Part shown: in pieces, positions 1,741 to 14,800 of the stretch | Position numbering within the stretch: position 1 is the stretch's first letter | Layout: each line of letters begins with the position of its first letter | Origin: Spirochaetales bacterium Spiro_05 | GTDB lineage: Bacteria; Spirochaetota; Spirochaetia; Sphaerochaetales; Sphaerochaetaceae | Length of the DNA stretch: 64,000 nt | NCBI GenBank assembly: GCA_001603115.1 | Contig: LVBG01000017.1 | Coordinates: 1-64,000 of the forward strand | Direction: 5' to 3' | Made by a program: the position numbers and the translations under genes | Notes under the pieces: generated by a model | Told to the model about the DNA's origin: nothing | The model's input: only the letters and a program-made list of their open reading frames with translations | The model's database searches: none

Positions 1741-2091
1741 TTACCAAATAGTCTTTTGATGGGAAATTTCATGTTCGACAAACTCACCAATCATTTCAAC
1801 GTAGTCAGTATCGCACAAGGTGAGCAGATAACCGATTTCCATGATTTTCTTGTTATTGATGACAACAGAGTATTTGACATCAAACCCTCTTTCCTCCTCC
1901 CCTGTCATGAGCCATCGAGGAGAAACCTTGAAGTAGTCAGCAACCTTCATGAGAAGATCTGCCCTTGGTATGGTGTTTCTCTTCATGGACATCGAAATGA
2001 AGGACTGTGACAAATCCAGACGCTTTTGTAGTTCTGTCTGATTCATCTTGTGGACACTTAGCAATTCTTGGAGCCTATCCCAAAATGTCAT
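1741..2091 (-). CDS. Phage repressor, XRE/CI-type helix-turn-helix protein
   Basis: This 116-residue protein has an N-terminal HTH of the XRE (lambda Cro/CI) class. Residues 5-60 hold the scan NQTELQKRLDLSQSFISMS followed by a second helix pair ending in YFKVSPRWLMTGEE, which is the usual end of this fold. The C-terminal half has no peptidase Ser/Lys motif, so it resembles small repressors rather than cleavable CI. It is transcribed leftward and is divergent from the early operon, and an inverted repeat lies over the early promoter. It most likely maintains lysogeny by repressing the rightward operon. Confidence 0.8.
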   Translation of the reverse strand: MTFWDRLQELLSVHKMNQTELQKRLDLSQSFISMSMKRNTIPRADLLMKVADYFKVSPRWLMTGEEERGFDVKYSVVINNKKIMEIGYLLTLCDTDYVEMIGEFVEHEISHQKTIW

Positions 2092-2646: not shown

Positions 2647-2901
2647 ATGGAGCGTGAATACATCACTCACTTGGAGAAGACACTGGAAGAAACTCAAAAG
2701 ATTTTGAAAGAAGCGGTTGAGAGGGTTGAGAGCATGAAATGGTCAAGAGACCACGCTCAAGAGGAGTTGGAAAAATACAAGCGCTATTGGCGTGAGGAAA
2801 TGGCCGAGACCAAAAAGGTCAGAGAAGAGCTTGAAGCACAAAAAAAGGAGCAGGAAGCTGTAACTTCCAACTCCTCCGATAACCTCAAGGAGGCAATCTG
2901 A
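2647..2901 (+). CDS. Small coiled-coil phage protein
   Basis: This 84-residue protein is almost entirely one predicted coiled coil (residues 3-70, rich in Glu, Lys and Arg with Leu, Val and Met at heptad positions). It starts at 2647 with GGCGAGGAG upstream, and its stop overlaps the start of the nuclease gene by one base, so translation is likely coupled. Such small coiled coils are common next to phage recombination genes, but no specific function can be assigned. Confidence 0.6.
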   Translation: MEREYITHLEKTLEETQKILKEAVERVESMKWSRDHAQEELEKYKRYWREEMAETKKVREELEAQKKEQEAVTSNSSDNLKEAI

Positions 2902-3851
2902 TGTTGATAACCAATAAATTTGGATTACCCGAACCTTACTACAAAAGCTGTCTGAAAGACAATCATCCGAGATTTGGCTGGGACACCTTTTCGGTCACTG
3001 AGCTGATGAAGGGCACCAAAGACATCATTCTCACCAGACGGCATTGGGAAGAGCTGGAGCAAGATTGTGTGGATATGATCTGGACAGTCTTCGGGACAGC
3101 CGTCCACAGCGTCATGGAGGGCCATGAGAGCGAGAACGAGCTGGCTGAGGAACGTATCTCAATGAAGGTCCCTTGCGGCGAGTATGGCGACATTAGGGTG
3201 TCTGGTGGCTTCGACCTGTACAACGGCGACACCAAGATTATCACCGACTACAAGACCACTGGAGTCTTCAGTTACCAGATGAAACTCCAGGAAGGAACCG
3301 AGAGCCATTGGGCCAAGCAGCTTCGCATTTACTGGCTGATTCTTGCAAAGGCTGGCTTCCCGGTCAAGGGAGTTAGGAACACCGTCTTCCTCAAGGACTG
3401 GAGCAAGACCAATGCAAAGCGGGACCGCTCCTATCCTCAGAAGCCGATTCTGAACATCGACTACGATTTCAGCGAGGTTTTCAGAAGTGATGTTGCCGCT
3501 GACATGATGGCAGACCTCTCTGCAAAAATCCAAGAGATTCTCTACTACAAGGACAAGCCGGAGGAAGAAATCCCCGATTGTACTGCTGAGGAGCGCTGGG
3601 AGCGTGGTGAATGCTGGGCGGTGATGAAGAAAGGCCGCAAGACAGCAATCAAGCGCCACGATTCGCAGTTCAATGCAGAACAGCACGCTGAGAACCTTGG
3701 AGCAGGTCACTATGTCGAGCATCGGCAGGGCGTACCAGTGAAGTGTGTCGATTACTGCACCTGTGCCGAAAAGTGTTCGTTCTACAAAAACTACATGGCT
3801 TCGCTTGAGGAAGGCAAGGTCAAGAATGAGGAGGAGACAATCAATGAGTAG
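2901..3851 (+). CDS. RecB-like PD-(D/E)XK exonuclease of the phage recombination module
   Basis: The 316-residue protein carries the signatures of the RecB/Cas4-type PD-(D/E)XK nuclease fold: GTAVHSVMEG near residue 56 (His), GGFDLYNGD near residue 93 (Asp), ITDYKTTG near residue 105 (Asp-x-Lys), and QLRIYWLIL near residue 130 (Q-x3-Y). A Cys-rich tail, CVDYCTCAEKC, near residue 290 could hold an Fe-S cluster as in AddB/Cas4 relatives, though that is inferred. It probably resects double-strand ends to load the annealing protein encoded by the next gene, whose start overlaps its stop by 8 bp. Confidence 0.75.
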   Translation: MLITNKFGLPEPYYKSCLKDNHPRFGWDTFSVTELMKGTKDIILTRRHWEELEQDCVDMIWTVFGTAVHSVMEGHESENELAEERISMKVPCGEYGDIRVSGGFDLYNGDTKIITDYKTTGVFSYQMKLQEGTESHWAKQLRIYWLILAKAGFPVKGVRNTVFLKDWSKTNAKRDRSYPQKPILNIDYDFSEVFRSDVAADMMADLSAKIQEILYYKDKPEEEIPDCTAEERWERGECWAVMKKGRKTAIKRHDSQFNAEQHAENLGAGHYVEHRQGVPVKCVDYCTCAEKCSFYKNYMASLEEGKVKNEEETINE

Positions 3852-4653
3852 CAATATTTACCAAGCAATGGCTGAAGTCATGAAGGATGTTGAGGCAATC
3901 AGCAAGGATCAGCAGAACAAGCAACAGGGCTTCAAATTCAGAGGCATTGATGATGTCTACAATGCGGTCCATCCAATCTTTGCCAAGCATGGTGTGTTCA
4001 CCGTTCCTACCGTTCTCAGTGAGAGGACGGAGGAAAGGCAGACCAGAAGCGGCGGAAACCTCATCTACCGCATCCTTACCATGAAGTACACCTTCTTTGC
4101 CTCCGATGGGTCCAGCGTTGAAGCTGTGGTCATTGGTGAGGGAATGGACAGCGGTGACAAGGGAGCCAACAAGGGCATGGCAATCGCTCACAAGTATGCC
4201 CTCCTCCAGACTCTCTGCATTCCTACCGAGGATATGGTTGATCCCGATTCAGAGGTGCCGGAATCGAGTACCAGGAAGCCGGAAGGAAGACCTGTGCAGC
4301 AGAACAGACCAGAGCCTCCAAGGAAGCCGGAAGGCAAGCCTTATAACCCTGCAACGGCATCCATTGCTCAAGTGGCTAGCACGACCAAGGCAATCATGAC
4401 TGATGCGAACCCTATCGTGAAGGGAGTGTTCACAGTCAAGCGTGGCTGGAATCAGATTGTTGAGATTTGTTCCGGCGACAAGGAATTTGCTAAGGGATTG
4501 TTCGCTCAGTTCGGCGCTGATTCATCCGACAAGATAACCTACGAGATTTACCTTGATGTGCTCAACGCAATCAAATCTCCCGGTGGTGAGGCTGGCCCGG
4601 AGTCGTTCGAGGGAGACCCTCTGGATGATGTTCCGTTCGGGGCAATCGCATGA
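3844..4653 (+). CDS. ERF-family single-strand annealing protein
   Basis: The start at 3844 is used because GAGGAG lies upstream and translation couples with the nuclease gene; an earlier in-frame ATG at 3745 falls inside that gene. The 269-residue product has the ERF pattern: an N-terminal helix with KDQQNKQQGFKFRGIDDVYNAV, a GNLIYRILTMKYTF strand, and the conserved core GMDSGDKGANKGMAIAHKYALL followed by TED. The C-terminal third is Pro-rich and then acidic (ending DDVPFGAIA). ERF proteins anneal complementary strands during phage recombination. With the RecB-like nuclease it forms a two-component recombinase. Confidence 0.88.
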   Translation: MSSNIYQAMAEVMKDVEAISKDQQNKQQGFKFRGIDDVYNAVHPIFAKHGVFTVPTVLSERTEERQTRSGGNLIYRILTMKYTFFASDGSSVEAVVIGEGMDSGDKGANKGMAIAHKYALLQTLCIPTEDMVDPDSEVPESSTRKPEGRPVQQNRPEPPRKPEGKPYNPATASIAQVASTTKAIMTDANPIVKGVFTVKRGWNQIVEICSGDKEFAKGLFAQFGADSSDKITYEIYLDVLNAIKSPGGEAGPESFEGDPLDDVPFGAIA

Positions 4654-5060
4654 AGTTGACGTTCTTGGTCAACGGTGGGGACTTCCGGGTCCCTGCCGGA
4701 TTCGAGAAGGAGTTTGGGGCGATACTTGCCCAAGCTCTGAAAGGTGATGGGAATATCAAGGTCACAATCGAGCCGAATTACCAGCAGAGGACTCTGAAGG
4801 AAAATGCTTACCTTCATGTGCTTTGCAAGCGTTTGGCAGAGATGGCTGGGGGAACGGCTGAGGATATGAAAGAGATGGCGAAAGCTAAGGCTGTCTCACT
4901 TGGCTACCCGGTTGAGACCGATGAGGAGGGAAATCCTGTCATTGGGGAATACGGAATCAAGGGCATTCCATCCAGCCAAGCTAATGTTGGGGAATGCAAG
5001 CTACTGATCGAAGCCGTTCATATGCTGGCTTCGGAGAACGGTTACAGTCTGGAGGACTAA
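4650..5060 (+). CDS. NinB-like recombination protein
   Basis: This 136-residue protein overlaps the ERF gene by 4 bp (ATGA). It has an N-terminal beta region, then KVTIEPNYQQRTLKENAYLHVLCKRLAEM, which resembles the RSLDQN/RKLW helix of lambda NinB-type proteins, and a C-terminal helix (GECKLLIEAVHMLASENG) matching the NinB ending. NinB proteins bind single-stranded DNA in the Red/ERF pathway. Position between ERF and SSB supports this. The match is by pattern only, so an unrelated early protein remains possible. Confidence 0.55.
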   Translation: MKLTFLVNGGDFRVPAGFEKEFGAILAQALKGDGNIKVTIEPNYQQRTLKENAYLHVLCKRLAEMAGGTAEDMKEMAKAKAVSLGYPVETDEEGNPVIGEYGIKGIPSSQANVGECKLLIEAVHMLASENGYSLED

Positions 5061-5062
5061 CG

Positions 5063-5473
5063 ATGGCAGATATGTGTTCAATCATGATTACTGGAAGGCT
5101 GACTTCTGACAGCGAAATCAAATATGCAGGACAGACACCGATACTCAAGTTTTCGGTTGCGGTTGGCCGATACGACAAAGGCCAGACAACCTCATCCTTC
5201 TTCGATGTGGTGCAGTTCTCAAGGAACGCAGAGTCACTGGTCGGGAAGCTTACCAAGGGCAAGCCTGTTGTTGTCCGTGGCGAGATGAGGCAGGAATTCT
5301 GGAATGCCAACGATGGTTCCAAGAGAAGCCGTTGGGTGTTGATGGCAGACTCGTTTGGTGTCCAGCCTCTCTACATACAGCAAGATGAGCAACGCTACGG
5401 CGGAGCTACCACCCAAGACATGTATGGCGGCCCAATGGGTGAAGATGATGATTTGGATGATATTCCGTTCTAG
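5063..5473 (+). CDS. ssb: Phage single-stranded DNA-binding protein
   Basis: The start at 5063 has GGAGG 8 bp upstream. The 136-residue protein contains one OB fold (residues 5-105), with ITGRLTSDSEIKYAGQTPILKFSVAV and SSFFDVVQFSRNAESLVGKLTKGKPVVVRGEMR, typical of bacterial SSB. It ends in the acidic tip DDDLDDIPF that recruits replication and repair proteins. The linker is short, as in many phage SSBs. It would protect single strands during ERF-mediated recombination and phage replication. Confidence 0.92.
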   Translation: MADMCSIMITGRLTSDSEIKYAGQTPILKFSVAVGRYDKGQTTSSFFDVVQFSRNAESLVGKLTKGKPVVVRGEMRQEFWNANDGSKRSRWVLMADSFGVQPLYIQQDEQRYGGATTQDMYGGPMGEDDDLDDIPF

Positions 5474-5986: not shown

Positions 5987-6445
5987 ATGCCGAGTGCGAG
6001 AGAGAAGGCGCTGACTGCATTCCAGAAATACCGAAGATACTTACTTGCTGATGGGAATGGTTACGCCACGTGCATATCGTGCGGCAAGGTTGGACATGTT
6101 TCCAAGATGGACGGAGGTCACTACGAAAGCCGGAAGAACAAGGCCACGGAGCTTGAGCCGGACAACGTATGGCCCCAATGCAAATATTGCAATGGTCCGC
6201 TGTCTGGGAACCACGTTGCGTATAGGAATCGTCTGATCTCTCGTATCGGCATGGAACGTTTACAGCGTTTGGAGAATATGGTCATGGCTTCCAAAGGCTC
6301 TGAGGAAGCGATGGAGAGCTTGTCTGAGGTGGATAGGAAAGCGATTACCACCAAGAAGAGGGACAAGGAATACCTGGAGATTGCAAAGCGATATGACAAG
6401 CTTGCAAAGGAACTGGAGAAGGAGAAGTTGATAAAAAATGCGTAA
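5987..6445 (+). CDS. ninG: NinG/Rap-like recombination nuclease
   Basis: The 152-residue protein has the NinG (Rap) pattern: a basic N-terminal helix, CISCGK near residue 26, GGHYESR near residue 43, NVWPQCKYCNGPLSGNH near residue 60, and YRNRLISRIG. The two CxxC pairs with the His form the zinc/HNH-like core of a structure-specific junction nuclease in the ERF/Red pathway. The C-terminal third is a Lys/Glu-rich coil. It overlaps the following gene by 8 bp. Location in the recombination module agrees. Confidence 0.8.
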   Translation: MPSAREKALTAFQKYRRYLLADGNGYATCISCGKVGHVSKMDGGHYESRKNKATELEPDNVWPQCKYCNGPLSGNHVAYRNRLISRIGMERLQRLENMVMASKGSEEAMESLSEVDRKAITTKKRDKEYLEIAKRYDKLAKELEKEKLIKNA

Positions 6446-6776
6446 GATGTTTTTCTTTCGGCACTACATGACAGAGCTTCAAAACCCGAACATCGCCGCA
6501 CTGTTCAAGCGGCATGGTGCAAGGGGGTACGGATTGTACTGGTACCTTCTGGAGCGCCTCTACTCAAAGGACACCAACACTCTGACCTACAACAAGGACC
6601 TTGAGAAAGAGCTTGCAAAGGCTCTGAGAATGCCTTGCTGGAGGGTGAGGACGATAGTCAAGGACTTGGAGGTGTTGAGGCTCGTGGAGATCACCTCAAG
6701 CGGTCTGCTCTCAAGCAGCAGGGTTGATTACGAGGTTAAGGAAGTGCGAGAGACAATGGCCAAGAAGCGGGGGTAG
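6438..6776 (+). CDS. Lin1244/Lin1753-type N-terminal domain protein (short)
   Basis: This 112-residue protein starts inside the NinG gene. RHYMTELQNPNIAALFKRHGARGYGLYWYLLERLY is the signature of the Lin1244/Lin1753 N-terminal domain (DUF4373), a winged-helix domain usually found at the front of longer phage replication proteins. Here only that domain is present; the stop comes after VRETMAKKRG and the downstream DNA is the repeat array, so the usual C-terminal part is absent or was lost. It may help replication initiation. Confidence 0.7.
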   Translation: MRKMFFFRHYMTELQNPNIAALFKRHGARGYGLYWYLLERLYSKDTNTLTYNKDLEKELAKALRMPCWRVRTIVKDLEVLRLVEITSSGLLSSSRVDYEVKEVRETMAKKRG

Positions 6777-6819
6777 GCCACCCCCACCTCACCAAGAACG
6801 CTGATGAGGCAAGTCAAAC

Positions 6820-7512
6820 GAGTGAACCGAAACAAAATAGCAAGCATGTTAGTTGAGTGAATCATACCTTAGAACCAAACATCTGAAGTGAGTGAACCAA
6901 AATTGGAAAAAGAAGCACCGTTTGGAAGTGAACCATTAGGTAGTAACAAGAGCAAAGGCAAGAGTGAATCAATATGCCGAGATACACAGAATAGAAAAGT
7001 GAACCAAAAGAAAGAACAAATACGAATTCGTAGAGTGAGCCAACCAGAAAACGAGAACAGGTAATGAGAGCGAACCGATAGCCCTAATTGAGGCAACCAA
7101 GTACGAGTGAACCAATCTCAGTGAAAAGACCATTTATTCATAAGTGAACCGAAAACGGATACAAAAGCAAAAACGCAGAGTGAACCGAAAACAGATAGAA
7201 AAAGCATAAATCCAAAGTGAACCAACACAATAAAAGAACCAAGTGCATGAAGTGAACCAACAGCGAATACAAGAACAAGTGCAGGGAGTGAGCCAACAGC
7301 GACTACAAAAGCAAGTGCGGGGAGCGGACCAACATTAAGAGATGAGCATATATATTGAGTGAGCCTACACTGTGGATAACAGCAAAATTTTTAAGCGAAC
7401 CATTTCTTGAGAATTCAAGCGTATATAACAAGTGAACCAATCGGAGACGAGTTTTCCAATACAAACGAGTGGACCGTAATGAACGAAGAAAATCGAATTA
7501 AAAAAGTGAACC
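6820..7512 (+). repeat. Array of 20 short repeats with 36-bp period; candidate TIGR guide-RNA array
   Basis: No gene fits 6777-7525. Instead the motif RA-GYGRRYC occurs 20 times, with the heptamer starting at 6822, 6857, 6892, 6928, 6964, 6999, 7035, 7070, 7107, 7144, 7180, 7217, 7252, 7288, 7324, 7359, 7395, 7432, 7469 and 7506. Spacing is always 35-37 bp. Eleven copies are exactly GTGAACC; the others are GTGAATC (2), GTGAGCC (3), GCGAACC (2), GCGGACC and GTGGACC. Every change is a transition, as expected if RNA base pairing is conserved. Between copies are 28-30 variable bases with a weaker central purine-purine-C-A motif, so each unit has two variable segments of about 9-12 nt. The period and two-spacer layout match the 36-nt guides of TIGR-Tas systems. 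An iteron-type origin is the main alternative. Confidence 0.82.
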
Positions 7513-7525
7513 AAGGAGAGTAAAA

Positions 7526-8323
7526 ATGTCTGAGTATGAAGTTAAGAGACAGAGAATCAAAGGAATCGTGAGAACCATCTATGACTACCAAGATATCAGG
7601 ATCAAGATGGGAAACCGCCTGAGATTCAAGGCTGATGGGTCTGACCAAAAGGACAACGGAACGGCGATGATAATCAACAATGAGGACATCCCTTCCCTTG
7701 TCGATGCCTTCCAGGATTCGAAAGATACCGAGGAAGCTCTGGTCAAGTCGTTGAAGAGAGAATTGAAGGGAATCAAGGTCTACGATGATTTCCTCAAGAA
7801 CGTAAAGGGTGTCGGCCCCATGATGGCAGCAGTCATCATTGCCGAGTATGACATTCACAAGGCCCATACCATTTCCGCAATGAACCAGTTCACTGGCCTC
7901 AATCCCGGAATGGTGTATGGAAGGAAGAAGTCTGGAGATAACATTGTTGTCACCGATACGTTAATCAAGGGCGACAAGCTCACCGCTGGCTTCCTCTCAC
8001 CGTACAATGTGAGGCTTCGGACAAAGATGATCGGCGTTCTTGCCCCATCTTTCATCAAGAGCAAGTCACCGTATTCCAAATTCTATTATGACTACAAGGA
8101 GAGGCTGAAGAACAAGGAGACCATGATTGAGGGTAGGGGCAAGGCTTGGAACGAGACAAGCGACCTGCACCGTCACAACGCAGCAATGAGGTACATGATT
8201 AAATGCTTCATCCGGGACCTGTATTACGTCTGGAGAGAGAGCGAAGGCCTTCCTACCAGATGCCCCTACGAAGAAGAGTACCTTGGACGCAAACACCATA
8301 TTTATGAAGGAGAAATTGCATGA
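7526..8323 (+). CDS. Tas-like protein: Nop/IS110 C-terminal-domain protein without nuclease (TasA type)
   Basis: The start at 7526 has GGAGAG upstream, 13 bp after the last array repeat. The 265-residue protein is helical. Residues 1-92 form a long helical pair with a polar insert. Residues 94-106 (KGVGPMMAAVIIA) are the helix-hairpin-helix of the IS110/IS116 C-terminal domain, followed by MNQFTGLNPGMVYGRKKSGD (119-138) and the terminal helical bundle (NVRLRTKMIG, SPYSKFYYDYKERL, HRHNAAMRYMIKCFIRDLY). The N-terminal DEDD/RuvC catalytic domain of IS110 transposases is absent, and no HNH is seen. This domain is related to the Nop fold that holds C/D-box RNAs. With the adjacent array I infer an RNA-guided DNA-binding protein. 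An annotation pipeline would call it a transposase, but no insertion-sequence ends are present. Confidence 0.78.
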   Translation: MSEYEVKRQRIKGIVRTIYDYQDIRIKMGNRLRFKADGSDQKDNGTAMIINNEDIPSLVDAFQDSKDTEEALVKSLKRELKGIKVYDDFLKNVKGVGPMMAAVIIAEYDIHKAHTISAMNQFTGLNPGMVYGRKKSGDNIVVTDTLIKGDKLTAGFLSPYNVRLRTKMIGVLAPSFIKSKSPYSKFYYDYKERLKNKETMIEGRGKAWNETSDLHRHNAAMRYMIKCFIRDLYYVWRESEGLPTRCPYEEEYLGRKHHIYEGEIA

Positions 8324-8511
8324 AAAAGCCATGTCAATATTGTGAGTTGGGAGATGATTCAAAGTCTCTCCATTGTGAGATTGGGAGCGGAGAAGCCTTC
8401 GTGGAAAGAGGATATATCTACGTGAATCTTGGTTCGGTTGATGCTCAGTTTAGTATTACGTATTGCCCGAATTGCGGAAGAGAGCTTGATATACCTGGAG
8501 ATAATTCATGA
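8320..8511 (+). CDS. Small zinc-ribbon protein
   Basis: The start overlaps the stop of the Tas-like gene by 4 bp (ATGA), so translation is coupled and the two may act together. The 63-residue protein has CQYC near residue 5, a lone Cys in LHCEIG, and CPNCGREL near the C-terminus, giving a likely CxxC/CxxC zinc site around a small beta sheet. Many phage early proteins have this design. No specific role is known, but its coupling to the Tas-like gene makes it worth testing as a partner. Confidence 0.6.
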   Translation: MKKPCQYCELGDDSKSLHCEIGSGEAFVERGYIYVNLGSVDAQFSITYCPNCGRELDIPGDNS

Positions 8512-8588
8512 AAAGCTTTGAATCAATGAGAGATTCGCTGAGTAAGAAGTCAGAAGAACCAAGTGGCAGGGAGGCCTCATGTCAATAA
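8508..8588 (+). CDS. Possible 26-residue peptide
   Basis: ATGA overlaps the stop of the zinc-ribbon gene, and GGAG lies 8 bp upstream at 8497-8500. The frame reads a short, polar, Ser/Glu-rich peptide ending at 8588 and overlapping the next gene start by 10 bp. It may simply be a translational bridge between its neighbours. Confidence 0.3.
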   Translation: MKSFESMRDSLSKKSEEPSGREASCQ

Positions 8589-8842
8589 AGTTGCCGATCA
8601 TCGCAGGGGTGCAAGACATGCCCGGCATTGAAGCTATGATTTTTGCAATCGATGTTAGAAATGAAAGCCAGGTTGAGGTGTATTTCCATCCGAAGCGTGT
8701 GGGCAGGGTTCAATACTTCAACGACAAGAATCTTATCCTCAGCAAGCACAATTTCTGTGTCTGCATGAGTTTTGATGCTCTTCGTGACGTACTGAGCGGA
8801 ACGCAGATTACTGTAGATGGATATATAGATGAAATGGAGTAG
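8579..8842 (+). CDS. Hypothetical phage protein (87 aa)
   Basis: A start at 8579 has GGGAGG upstream. The protein is beta-rich (MIFAIDVRNESQVEVYFHPKRVGRVQYFND) with a helical C-terminus. It has no membrane segment and two nearby Cys (NFCVCM). No family is recognised. It lies in the string of small early genes to the right of the Tas-like protein, all on the plus strand with gaps of only a few bases. Confidence 0.5.
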   Translation: MSIKLPIIAGVQDMPGIEAMIFAIDVRNESQVEVYFHPKRVGRVQYFNDKNLILSKHNFCVCMSFDALRDVLSGTQITVDGYIDEME

Positions 8843-10710: not shown

Positions 10711-11205
10711 TTGGATAAGCACAATACTTGTAATCATCAATTATTCAATACCCGCATTTCACGCAAGTGGATGGAAGCAGATGAACAGGCAAGAGAGCTT
10801 GAAAGCAAGGACGGCCAGGATCGGATTATCCTGCTGGCTGATGATGGTGATTATTCCATTTTTACTTTGGACGAATGCTACAAAGCCTTTTCACATTACG
10901 AAGATGAAGCAGCTAAGGAAATCCACATCGAGGAAGCATTCTACAATGCACAGGATGGGATGCCAATGTATGCCTTCTTCGATCTGATTCTATCCGTGAG
11001 AGATGGTAGTTCAGATTATTTCAACAGGGCATACACCATGATGAAGGCCAAGTATTTTGACATGTATGATGCCGAAAAGGACATGAATATCGAAATTCGT
11101 ACAATGCTTCGTCAGAAACTTCCCCCATGCTCCGACCTGTTGTACCTGACGCACTACCTGAAGGAGCATTGGGAGAAATTTGGAAGACCATTCATTTGGG
11201 ACTAG
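10711..11205 (+). CDS. Hypothetical protein with PCSDL C-terminal domain (TTG start)
   Basis: TTG at 10711 has GGAG at 10701-10704. The 164-residue protein is acidic and helical; residues 120-164 duplicate the domain seen in the gene at 10303 (shared IE/DEIR-x2-L-x-QK, PCSDL and YLxEHxxKxG). The N-terminal 110 residues are unrelated to any family I recognise. It converges with the integrase gene and overlaps it by 4 bp. A TATAAT at 10678-10683 could be its -10, with only a weak -35. Confidence 0.5.
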   Translation: MDKHNTCNHQLFNTRISRKWMEADEQARELESKDGQDRIILLADDGDYSIFTLDECYKAFSHYEDEAAKEIHIEEAFYNAQDGMPMYAFFDLILSVRDGSSDYFNRAYTMMKAKYFDMYDAEKDMNIEIRTMLRQKLPPCSDLLYLTHYLKEHWEKFGRPFIWD

Positions 11206-12500
11206 ATGATGTTGCTTAGGCGATCACGAAGACCTTGAAGTTGTTCGAGTCTTCGTTTCCCGTCTCTGTGGTCATAACCTTGTCGATATTTTGTGTGACC
11301 CATAAGTTCTTCAATCTGGCTTTTCTCAACTTCGCCCGCAATCATTGTTTGGAAAGTATGGCGTAGACAGTATTGGGTTCGTCCCTTGAGGTCTATGCCT
11401 GCTTTCGTAGCAAAAGAATTGAAGTGTTTATTTGAAGTAAAAACTGATAAATAGCCACCATCAATCATAAACAAATATTCTTGATCTTTTGGCATTCTTG
11501 CTATGTGTTTGTCTAAAATCCTGCAACACTGGTCAGAAAGCAGACCGATTTTTGATTTCATGCCTTTGTCAGTCGTTTTGATTCGCTTGACTACTTCTTT
11601 TGTGAAACTATTTACAGATTGGGAAGTATAGATTCCCTTGAGTTCAGGGTAGTAGTTTGATCTTGTCAACCCAGCAATTTCCCCTGGCCTAAAACCTGTA
11701 CATTTCATGATAAGGAAATAACTAGCCCACATGAGGCCTCCCCAAACCCAAATAGCTGTGTTGTCAAATTCTGGAAACATTATTGCCATTTCTTCTTCTG
11801 TGAAAGGCTGTCTCGGATTCGACTCCTCCGAAATTTTGTCAACTTTCTCGCACGGATTTGATTCGATTAGGCCTAAGTTGACAGCTTCTTTCATGATGTA
11901 TGACATGCACATGAGGACTTTGTTTTTTGAGTTGGACGCCATCTGCTTTCCGCTTGCAGCTCTCCTCATAGAAATGAACCATTCATCAATCATGATATGG
12001 TCAATATTTCTCAAATAGACGTTGCTGAAAGTTGGCAAGATATAATTGCGGAGTCTTCCATCCATTGTGTAGTAATAATACTCGTTGTATCGACGGTTCT
12101 TTCTTTCGTTTTTTGCTCTGTATGACCTTTCGTCAGTTCTGGTGTAAAAACCTTCAGCGAATTCCCCAAAAGTAATATCCTTGCTCTTCCTCTCCCTAAG
12201 CTGGCATCGAGCCCAAAACGTCGCATTCAATTCATCGGAGTAGCCTGTTGATATCCAGGAATCTGATCCCTTGAATTGTACTTGAATGTTTCGTCCTTTC
12301 CTTCTGATTAATCTGAAGTCTTTGTGTTCTGCTTGTTGCAGATAGTCTCCAGTGTTTCTTAGCTGGGCTTCAGCCCATTTGATTGCATCTTCTTTGGTAT
12401 GGCAACCAGAAGAGACCCACTTTTCAGTCCCATCGAAAAAAACCTGAACACATCGCCCCTGTCTTTGGGTGATTCGATACTTTGCTTTTTTAGTTTCCAT
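11202..12500 (-). CDS. int: Tyrosine-type site-specific integrase with duplicated arm domain
   Basis: The 432-residue enzyme has two tandem N-terminal copies of a small strand-helix arm-binding unit (residues 6-48 and 61-103; compare GRCVQVFFDGTEKWVSSG and GRNIQVQFKGSDSWISTG). A SAM-like core-binding region follows (about 112-230), then the catalytic domain. Catalytic residues visible are Arg in TGFRPGEIAGL, the RHTF box (YCLRHTFQTM), GHT and a Tyr in GYDHRD near residue 415. The first His of the HxxR box is replaced by Tyr/Cys, which occurs in some members. The gene points away from the tRNA-Leu and its start lies about 120 bp from the tRNA 3' end, which is the usual arrangement at an integration site. 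It mediates integration and excision of the element. Confidence 0.9.
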   Translation of the reverse strand: METKKAKYRITQRQGRCVQVFFDGTEKWVSSGCHTKEDAIKWAEAQLRNTGDYLQQAEHKDFRLIRRKGRNIQVQFKGSDSWISTGYSDELNATFWARCQLRERKSKDITFGEFAEGFYTRTDERSYRAKNERKNRRYNEYYYYTMDGRLRNYILPTFSNVYLRNIDHIMIDEWFISMRRAASGKQMASNSKNKVLMCMSYIMKEAVNLGLIESNPCEKVDKISEESNPRQPFTEEEMAIMFPEFDNTAIWVWGGLMWASYFLIMKCTGFRPGEIAGLTRSNYYPELKGIYTSQSVNSFTKEVVKRIKTTDKGMKSKIGLLSDQCCRILDKHIARMPKDQEYLFMIDGGYLSVFTSNKHFNSFATKAGIDLKGRTQYCLRHTFQTMIAGEVEKSQIEELMGHTKYRQGYDHRDGKRRLEQLQGLRDRLSNII

Positions 12501-12620
12501 GCCCGAATTATGGGTAAAAACTTAACGTTTGTAAACCCAAAAAATGCACACTTACGTACACTTGTACGCAGGTGTACATTTTTAAATGCTTATGCTTTAA
12601 TACTATATGAAAAAATACTT
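12501..12620. promoter_or_regulatory. Integrase upstream region / putative attachment flank
   Basis: The 120 bp between the integrase start and the tRNA 3' end are AT-rich. GTACAC at 12556-12561 pairs with GTGTAC at 12572-12577, and further CTTACGTACA/CTTGTACGCA half-repeats overlap this. These are candidate integrase or excisionase binding sites. The crossover core is expected within the tRNA 3' part (12621 onward). The duplicate copy of that part is not found elsewhere in the window, so the other end of the element lies to the left. Confidence 0.4.
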
Positions 12621-12704
12621 TGCCGAAAGCGGGGCTTGAACCCGCACGCCCTTGCGAGCAAGGGATTTTAAGTCCCTTGTGTCTACCAATTCCACCATTT
12701 CGGC
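12621..12704 (-). tRNA. tRNA-Leu (anticodon TAA)
   Basis: Read on the minus strand, the 84-nt gene has a 7-bp acceptor stem (GCCGAAA with TTTCGGC), a discriminator A, a D-arm starting TGGTGGAATTGGTAGACAC, an anticodon stem AGGGA/TCCCT around CTTAAAA with anticodon TAA, a long variable arm (TGCTCGCAAGGGCG region), and a T-arm GCGGG-TTCAAGC-CCCGC. No CCA is encoded. Its 3' end faces the integrase and probably forms the attachment core. Confidence 0.95.
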
Positions 12705-13386: not shown

Positions 13387-13602
13387 ATGAGTAGGATAGA
13401 AACAAGCAGTGATATCGGAAAGCTCGTGCACTCAAAAAGAAAGGAACTCGGACTCACCTATAAGGAAGCAGCTGGGCTTTGTGGGGTAGGTGTGCGTTTC
13501 TGGTCTGAATTGGAACGTGGGAAGAGCTCTCTTCATCTGGGAAAAGTCCTTTTTGTACTTATGCGTTTGGGCCTTGATCTACAGGTGGAGGGACGAGTAT
13601 GA
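13387..13602 (+). CDS. hipB: HipB-like antitoxin / HTH regulator
   Basis: The 71-residue protein is a complete XRE-type HTH (GKLVHSKRKELGLTYKEAAGLCGVGVRFWSELERGKSSLHLGKVLFVLMRLGLDLQVEG). This matches HipB from hipBA toxin-antitoxin loci, where it binds DNA and the HipA kinase. The start at 13387 is the only good ATG; its ribosome binding site is weak. It overlaps the hipA remnant by 4 bp. With hipA broken it may survive as a solitary regulator. Confidence 0.75.
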   Translation: MSRIETSSDIGKLVHSKRKELGLTYKEAAGLCGVGVRFWSELERGKSSLHLGKVLFVLMRLGLDLQVEGRV

Positions 13603-14800
13603 CACTGGTTGTGTCCCAGAACAATCGAAGGGTGGGCCTTCTGGACGGTACAGCCGATCGGGGCGTGGTCTTCTTGTATGATCCTCACTATCTTGCCGAT
13701 CCCAATGCTAGGGCAATCTCGCACTCACTCCCACTCCAAAAGCAGGAATTCTCCTCCAAGCAGTGTCTGCCTTTTTTCTCCGGTCTTCTTCCTGATGGGA
13801 AAATGAGACGCAGGATAGGTGAGTACCTTCAAGTAAGCGAATCAAGTACCTTGCGGTTGCTGGAAGCTTTGGGCAGGGAGTGCGCAGGCTCGGCTGTCTT
13901 GCGGGAATAGGTAAATCCAGAACTCAACTATTCCGTACAGGGAACGTACAGAAGAGTGGAGGAGGATGAGCTTGCAGCAAAGATTCGACATATGGATGTT
14001 CGGCCGTTGCTTCTTGGGTCTTCTGACCTTCGCCAATCACTTGCCGGGGCCCAACAAAAAATTTCGCTTGCCCGATTTTCCGGTGATTGGTATTTGCCCT
14101 TGGATGGGGCTGCCTCAAGTCATATTCTCAAGCCTTCAAAGGCTCCTTTCCATACTTTGGCTGTAAATGAATTCCTCTGCATGCAGTTGGCAAAGATGTG
14201 TGCACTCCCTGTTGCAGATACAGAGCTTGTGATGGTGGAGGATATCCCGGTCTTTGTCACCGAGCGGTATGACCGAAGGAGGGTGAGCGAACATCCCCCG
14301 GTGATCGAGCGCATCCCTCAGGAGGATGCTTGCCAAGCGCTTGGGATCATGCCTGACCGAAAGTATGAGGAAGACGGTGGCCCTGGTTTGGGGCAACTTG
14401 CAACCTTGGTGCAAAAGCTCTCCGCAACTCCCATCCTTGGGTTGCAGAAACTGTTGCCTCTGGGTTTGTATATGATGGGGAGAACCTCTTAGGAACACTT
14501 GCCCCTTTTTATGACCTTGTGAGTACCCGTTGCTATGCACAGTTGTCTCCAAAGCTTTCCATGGGAATTGGGGGCGAGTATCGCCTCGGTTCCATTCGAA
14601 AGGAACATTTCCTGAAGCTCGCCCAGGAGCTTGGGATAGGCAAGCGCTCTATGGTTTCCCGGTTGGAAGAGATGAGCGAGCATGTGAGGCAGGGATTTGA
14701 AGTGCTTTCTGTTTCTCCTGATGCTGGACGCTGGGAACCATTTGAGGCAACAGACCGAGGCTCGGATGCAGCAGATTCGGTCCTGAGCACAGACAAAACA
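13599..14800 (+). pseudogene. hipA: hipA kinase remnant with nonsense codon and internal deletion
   Basis: Three blocks of HipA homology are visible. Block 1 (13599-13907) holds the N-terminal domain (VVSQNNRRVGLLDG ... PFFSGLLPDG) and stops at a TAG at 13908. The same frame then continues with block 2 (13911-14490), including SLAGAQQKISLARF, the ATP-binding lobe and PVFVTERYDRR. Block 3 (from about 14478, in a different frame) holds LAPFYDLVST and the C-terminal helices. The HipA catalytic segment, normally an NxDxHxKN motif between blocks 2 and 3, is missing, so the frame change comes with a deletion of roughly 20 codons. The kinase cannot be active. The end is approximate; the frame reads on past the thrC terminator. 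Confidence 0.85.

Follow-up and report, generated by a model that had tools for sequence, protein, structure and literature searches.

Among described RNA-guided systems, the closest to the locus considered here are the dual-repeat TIGR-TasA systems, such as FpTIGR of Flavonifractor plautii (Faure et al., 2025, PMC12045711). That study left natural targets, the function of nuclease-less TasA and array expansion as questions (section 10); spirochaet*, Treponema and Sphaerochaeta are absent from its main text, and no paper on a spirochaete TIGR system was found in the open-licence full-text literature. Here we consider a 64,000-nt stretch of DNA from Spirochaetales bacterium Spiro_05 (assembly GCA_001603115.1, contig LVBG01000017.1, positions 1 to 64,000; hereafter the window), which is best explained overall, with a probability that we put at about 0.88, as holding a TIGR-TasA system of the dual-repeat kind, borne by a temperate phage whose host is a Sphaerochaeta-type spirochaete. 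The locus shares with TIGR-TasA a solo Nop-domain protein, a neighbouring array in which edge and loop repeats alternate, separated by 9-nt spacers, in 35–37-nt units, a base pair between edge halves, carriage by a phage, and no adaptation gene among the neighbour proteins scanned. It differs in its host, in an array that lies upstream and merges into the start of tasA with no terminator found, in its degenerate loops, in an edge motif AG...YCR against the UG...CCA given for TasR, and in its 20 edges, above the 5–15 units most common in TIGR arrays (Faure et al., 2025).

The array (6820..7513, + strand) consists of 20 edge repeats of consensus RAGYGRRYCN bounding 19 complete units, and was delimited by motif scan, unit parse and inter-edge covariation. 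The original prediction, made from the sequence alone, was of 20 short repeats spaced 35–37 bp apart directly before a 265-residue open reading frame, and the scan found all 20 copies of RAGYGRRYC at that spacing, starting at 6820, 6855, 6890, 6926, 6962, 6997, 7033, 7068, 7105, 7142, 7178, 7215, 7250, 7286, 7322, 7357, 7393, 7430, 7467 and 7504; the repeat itself is 10 nt long. On both strands of the whole window the motif occurs 35 times, 20 of them in the array, against 19.8 ± 5.0 expected (0 of 100 shuffles reached 35). A chain detector (8-mer, at most one mismatch, spacing 32–40, at least four copies) recovered the array at 6820–7513, and with the array masked it reported no other chain in the window and none in 9 control stretches (of 15 fetched from related genomes). 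The last edge runs into a ribosome-binding-site-like AGGAGAG ahead of the ATG (7504..7525, +), with tasA starting 12 bases beyond the array's end. Because a simple scan of 6400–8700 returned no terminator-like site between array and gene (or elsewhere in that interval), the tas mRNA probably has the array as its leader, and the two would be co-transcribed; the one promoter-like site in that scan, at 8613, lies past tasA. The edges are constant and not palindromic, unlike the palindromic hairpin that replaces the edge in the stem-loop array type. Folding of the array RNA was no better than that of shuffled sequences (z +1.5; it was equalled or bettered by 18 of 20 shuffles).

Each unit comprises a 9-nt edge, a 9-nt spacer A, a loop of 8–10 nt and a 9-nt spacer B, for a total of 35–37 nt; the parse takes the edge as AGYGRRYCN, thereby placing all length variation in the loop. 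Sixteen of the 19 units parse as spacer A 9, loop 8–10 with a penultimate C, and spacer B 9. The expectation of one repeat with variable sequence between copies therefore held for the array but not for the single repeat type, as a second, degenerate repeat (the loop) sits mid-unit. In 16 of the 19 loops the penultimate base is C (binomial p ~1e-11 relative to the composition of the spacers themselves, for a position picked after looking), a box C-like C that edge and loop have in common, and the first loop base is A in 15 of 19. Box D is not clear in the loops of the window array (AG in 2 of 19), whereas it is clear in a locus from a divergent Sphaerochaeta metagenome-assembled genome (MAG), where the edge is AGCGAGCCA, the loop AGAAAACCA and the spacers 9 nt (G098/L015). 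With edge and loop repeats, 9-nt spacers and units of ~36 nt, the array fits the dual-repeat TIGR layout.

The most telling test concerns covariation between neighbouring edges. Were units cut in mid-edge, one RNA would carry the 3′ half of an edge (i) together with the 5′ half of the next (i+1), and a base pair between these halves should covary across neighbours and not inside a single edge; all 81 position pairs across neighbouring edges, together with the 36 within one edge, were scored on this logic. When the arrays of the window, G092 and G114 were pooled, R6 of edge i and Y3 of edge i+1 stood out at z 50.6, with the next best pair at 7.7; the counts were A-T 37, G-C 20, G-T 2 and A-C 0 (n=59), so that 59/59 are standard pairs (Fisher 8e-14). 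The window array alone gives 19/19 (16 A-T, 3 G-C; permutation p 0.0011). Inside one edge R6 and Y3 show no link (window counts A-T 14, G-T 3, A-C 3). In nine further arrays 97 of 100 neighbours are Watson-Crick, adding little weight as nearly every array has one pair type. The two covarying positions lie some 30 bp apart and span both spacers, which argues against DNA-binding sites and marks where a unit starts and ends. Such a covarying pair of edge halves has been described for TasR (Faure et al., 2025, section 8 and legend of Fig. 6G), and here it is seen for TasA. The inter-edge pairing rule can also serve as a sequence-only test for TIGR arrays and their unit boundaries, provided that an array mixes pair types.

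The gene that follows the array (tasA, 7526..8323, +) encodes a 265-residue solo Nop-domain Tas protein, identified from the open reading frame and from family and fold searches. Its product scores 129.2 bits against the curated TIGR-Tas model NF052498 (cut-off 100), and Transposase_20 is its sole Pfam match at E up to 0.1. The best structural matches of the predicted model are TasH and TasR, as the original prediction of a Nop-type fold had led one to expect, with residues 1–265 aligning to TasH 61–306. Family and fold searches found no HNH or RuvC domain and no DEDD catalytic domain, the match being to the C-terminal type only, which places the protein in the TasA subclass and agrees with the earlier description of a protein made of the Nop domain alone. 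PADLOC, run on 4 proteins, gave no match. Together with the edge/loop array, the covarying half-edges and the conservation of the array–tas pair within the genus, these scores uphold the assignment to TIGR-Tas that had been proposed from the letters of the window.

Comparison with other known systems separates the locus from each. TIGR-TasH of Salicola phage CGphi29 carries an N-terminal HNH nuclease, whereas the window protein begins at the equivalent of TasH residue 61 and has no HNH; we take the solved TasH structure to be that of CGphi29. The RNA-guided recombinases of the IS110 family (IS621) differ by their DEDD domain, which has no match here; the window protein reaches 16.9 bits against the NCBIfam IS110 model, far under its 140-bit cut-off, and Rfam gave no match around the tas gene. 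Archaeal Nop5 and box C/D snoRNPs differ in that the window guides sit in a tight array, and the structural Z-score to them is within a range that mere helical similarity can reach. The locus resembles CRISPR in its regular repeats, variable spacers and adjoining effector gene; however, in place of one 25–36-nt repeat with spacers of like size it has two short repeats of 8–10 nt, 9-nt spacers and a 35–37-nt unit, arrays that differ internally by units, and no cas-like gene among the neighbour proteins scanned.

Relatives of Tas were found in 8 of 139 genomes of the family (the window's genome counted), in 4 IMG/VR contigs, at 11 loci of the genome collection (some in the same genomes as the family set) and in three records of phages (two of Salicola phage CGphi29, one of Microcystis phage Mvi-JY20); tblastn against plasmids returned none. 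In other genomes of the genus, array and tas stay together at the homologous loci, and the system is present in three near-complete genomes of one genus, assembled in one contig each (G092, G100) or two (G114). An edge-like repeat chain lies near the tas gene in 11 of 12 loci scanned, upstream or, in several, downstream. In the weakest case (L035) the chain is four copies long, and another 8-mer also reached that length alone there; the sole locus lacking a chain (L039) has only 229 bases preceding its match. Among the distant loci, the longest chain parsed (25 edges) is in a Spirochaetales MAG with a Tas of ~45% identity (L033:7727-9026); it lies ~1 kb downstream of the tas gene, and a further chain lies beyond. 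On a metagenomic virus contig (L008:7118-8008) a small array with the very regular loop AGAAAACCA is followed by an unnamed gene and then tas; the unnamed gene had been suspected by eye of being ParB-like, and Pfam gave no ParB match. A 32-kb viral contig (L042) bears a head-tail connector 99% identical to that of G100 and is absent among the Tas-bearing contigs, so it may be without the system or incomplete.

How the arrays change can be followed in closely related pairs, counting units as shared when more than half of the 18 spacer bases agree (a few "shared" units differ by 4–5 bases). The TasA proteins of the window and G100 differ at 1 of 265 residues, and their arrays have 19 units in common, in the same order, with four extra units in G100, one of them at the 5′ end, two between window units 11 and 12, and one between 17 and 18. 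As the window genome is a MAG of 68.6% completeness, its missing units rest on the assembly. A comparison independent of it, of G114 with the G107 draft, gives 17 common units, besides which 9 are confined to G114 and 2 to G107, at places spread over the array; a further locus (L001) has 16 units in common with each of the two. Arrays thus differ by whole units, internally and at the 5′ end, and not by leader-end addition alone. Some units have one spacer alike and the other different (spacer B is identical in G114 units 16 and 17, for example). Between the three lineages, with TasA 75–79% identical to the window's, there is no convincing sharing of spacer pairs (2–5 poor matches). Shared spacers differ by 0–8%, against 4.9–11.7% at tas third positions: 3.3% and 0% for G114–G107 (baseline 6.8%), and 7.0% (A) and 4.1% (B) for window–G100 (baseline 4.9%), whose spacer A is the sole set above its baseline. 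Hypervariability by point mutation is thus unsupported, the shared-unit divergence lying near or below that of third positions with this one exception. Near-duplicate units inside the window and G100 arrays are suggestive (window units 13/14, 16/18 identical), but tandem duplication is not put forward as the rule, the overall count of near-duplicates being within the shuffled range. Since the window and G100 differ so little and their arrays are collinear, array evolution becomes measurable at a known divergence.

For the target searches, a predicted target was written as spacer A followed by the reverse complement of spacer B, with a gap of 0–2; the opposite order was also run. We deduced the order by combining the cut rule with the 8-nt overhangs at the 3′ ends (Faure et al., 2025, sections 7 and 8, two sections that differ in how they word the cut). 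Against 19 sequences (402 kb: the window, 15 prophage stretches and 3 phage loci), 123 units from eight arrays gave 10 two-mismatch sites, against 10.0 for shuffled pairs, and none better; the opposite order gave 2 one-mismatch and 5 two-mismatch sites, against 1.4 and 8.8. Six arrays against 108 sequences (1.35 Mb) gave 9 one-mismatch sites, against 3–4 for shuffled pairs, which tends in favour of targets; after near-identical units and apparently related contigs are merged, these reduce to four unit/place groups, all in distant phage contigs, and the opposite order gave 2 sites against 0–3. BLAST of concatenated gap-0 targets against 26 genomes of the genus returned no unit-aligned exact 18-mer, with near matches such as a one-mismatch site for unit 3 in each of G094 and G109. 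The phage collection holds only one weak match to the window phage and almost nothing alike. Exact patterns (gap 0–2) of 4 of the 19 window units against the viral_contigs collection hit 0, 1, 0 and 8 contigs; because these nine loci have no DNA in common with the prophages and yielded no relative of any of seven prophage proteins, we take them as probable chance matches. The paired-spacer search suggested by the original prediction thus gave no set of matches clearly above chance in phage, prophage or genus sequence. These nulls speak against near-perfect matches to conserved targets in the host or the phage itself and leave room for mismatched ones.

Within the TIGR-TasA reading, gene order and the missing terminator suggest that the array would be transcribed in the + direction along with the early recombination genes of the phage and the following tasA. 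By the pairing rule, and by what is known of the family, the transcript would then be cut in mid-edge into ~36-nt guides, each with its 5′ and 3′ half-edges held by base pairs that include the covarying R6–Y3. A TasA dimer, as the fold suggests, would bind the guide, and each of the two 9-nt spacers would pair with a different strand of a single ~18-bp DNA site, which may be opened and bent. No cutting is proposed because no nuclease domain was found in TasA. The likeliest use, which we hold at somewhat under even odds, would be to keep competing mobile DNA from being transcribed or replicated while the phage grows or is lysogenic. Competition is favoured because no convincing spacer pair is common to the prophages with 75–79% identical TasA and none clearly matches the host genus. 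An extension offered tentatively, and rather doubtful as a whole, is that arrays may gain or lose whole cassettes, from mid-edge to mid-edge and anywhere along their length, with occasional reuse of a half-unit from a neighbour, needing no machinery for acquisition and with every cassette keeping its own A-U or G-C closing pair; the array would double as the tasA leader, coupling guide maturation to TasA expression and so yielding an early, nuclease-free, RNA-guided blocker of rivals. Several points weigh against the TIGR-TasA reading: units 4, 8 and 9 (3/19) misfit the exact 9/8–10/9 parse; the loops are degenerate, and the AG expected of box D, as in the edge, is in 2 of 19; a terminator after the array, typical of TIGR arrays if not required, was not found; and the role in competition is one that we infer, with no target identified and no target search clearly above chance.

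Other uses of the same machinery have to be weighed. TIGR-TasA could be an RNA-guided repressor of the phage's own or host genes, not aimed at competitors; the array's place in the early operon, leading straight into tasA, makes self-regulation by leader processing conceivable, and the lack of a detectable nuclease domain would suit such a regulator. We nonetheless regard this as unlikely, since neither order of spacers yields 18-bp sites above the shuffled-pair null in the window and the related-prophage stretches, the genus genomes hold no exact gap-0 site, and related prophages do not retain the same spacers, which common regulatory targets would call for; these results leave room for targets with several mismatches. 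Decidedly less likely is an architectural aid to integration or recombination, an idea raised earlier (Faure et al., 2025, section 10), in which TasA would bend attachment-site or phage DNA for the integrase. A tyrosine integrase does lie ~3 kb off, with a tRNA-Leu at the prophage end, and recombination genes precede the array; however, one attachment site needs no ~20 changing guides, and the target set that showed no excess includes the window's integrase, tRNA-Leu and host flank.

The array might instead be a set of iteron-like double-stranded DNA sites bound by a protein of replication or partition. Direct repeats of a similar kind are common among iterons, and a Lin1244_N/replication-initiator-like phage gene (6438..6776, +, in the early-gene run by protein family searches), which would be the initiator, ends 43 bp ahead of the array. 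We hold this to be extremely improbable: protein–DNA sites offer no evident reason for covariation across ~30 bp in 59/59 pairs with none within an edge, no convincing spacer pair is common to prophages with the same neighbours, and the edge-like chains stand beside tas in 11 of 12 loci, several of them downstream. For the TIGR-TasA reading, Sphaerochaeta includes cultured species, and if cultured lysogens exist, sequencing of native guide RNAs (tigRNAs) and target mapping become possible.

The element itself is a temperate phage beside a tRNA-Leu of a Sphaerochaeta-type spirochaete; a temperate phage in a spirochaete had been predicted. The window's genome belongs to the same genus as G107 and G098. 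Protein family searches identify a CI-like repressor (1741..2091, −) divergent from the early genes, and behind it the early block that precedes the array, with recombination genes for an exonuclease, an Erf-like annealing protein, NinB/Orf and SSB (2901..5473, +) and a NinG/Rap-like recombination endonuclease (5987..6445, +), a phage nin-region gene and not a Tas part. After the array, at 11202–12704, come the prophage's tyrosine integrase (11202..12500, −) and the adjoining tRNA-Leu(taa) (12621–12704), probably the attachment site and right prophage end. In G100 a related prophage encodes a head-tail connector, capsid protein and terminase, and upstream of its early block it has an ArdC-type anti-restriction gene (L018:5206-6123). 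Beside the prophage end in the window, HipA N- and C-terminal domains occupy separate open reading frames (13599–14492), a host toxin-antitoxin kinase gene that is probably broken. Between a phage gene and the repressor, at 1540–1740, lie tandem AGTTATCCACA and AT-rich short repeats, a possible origin or operator.
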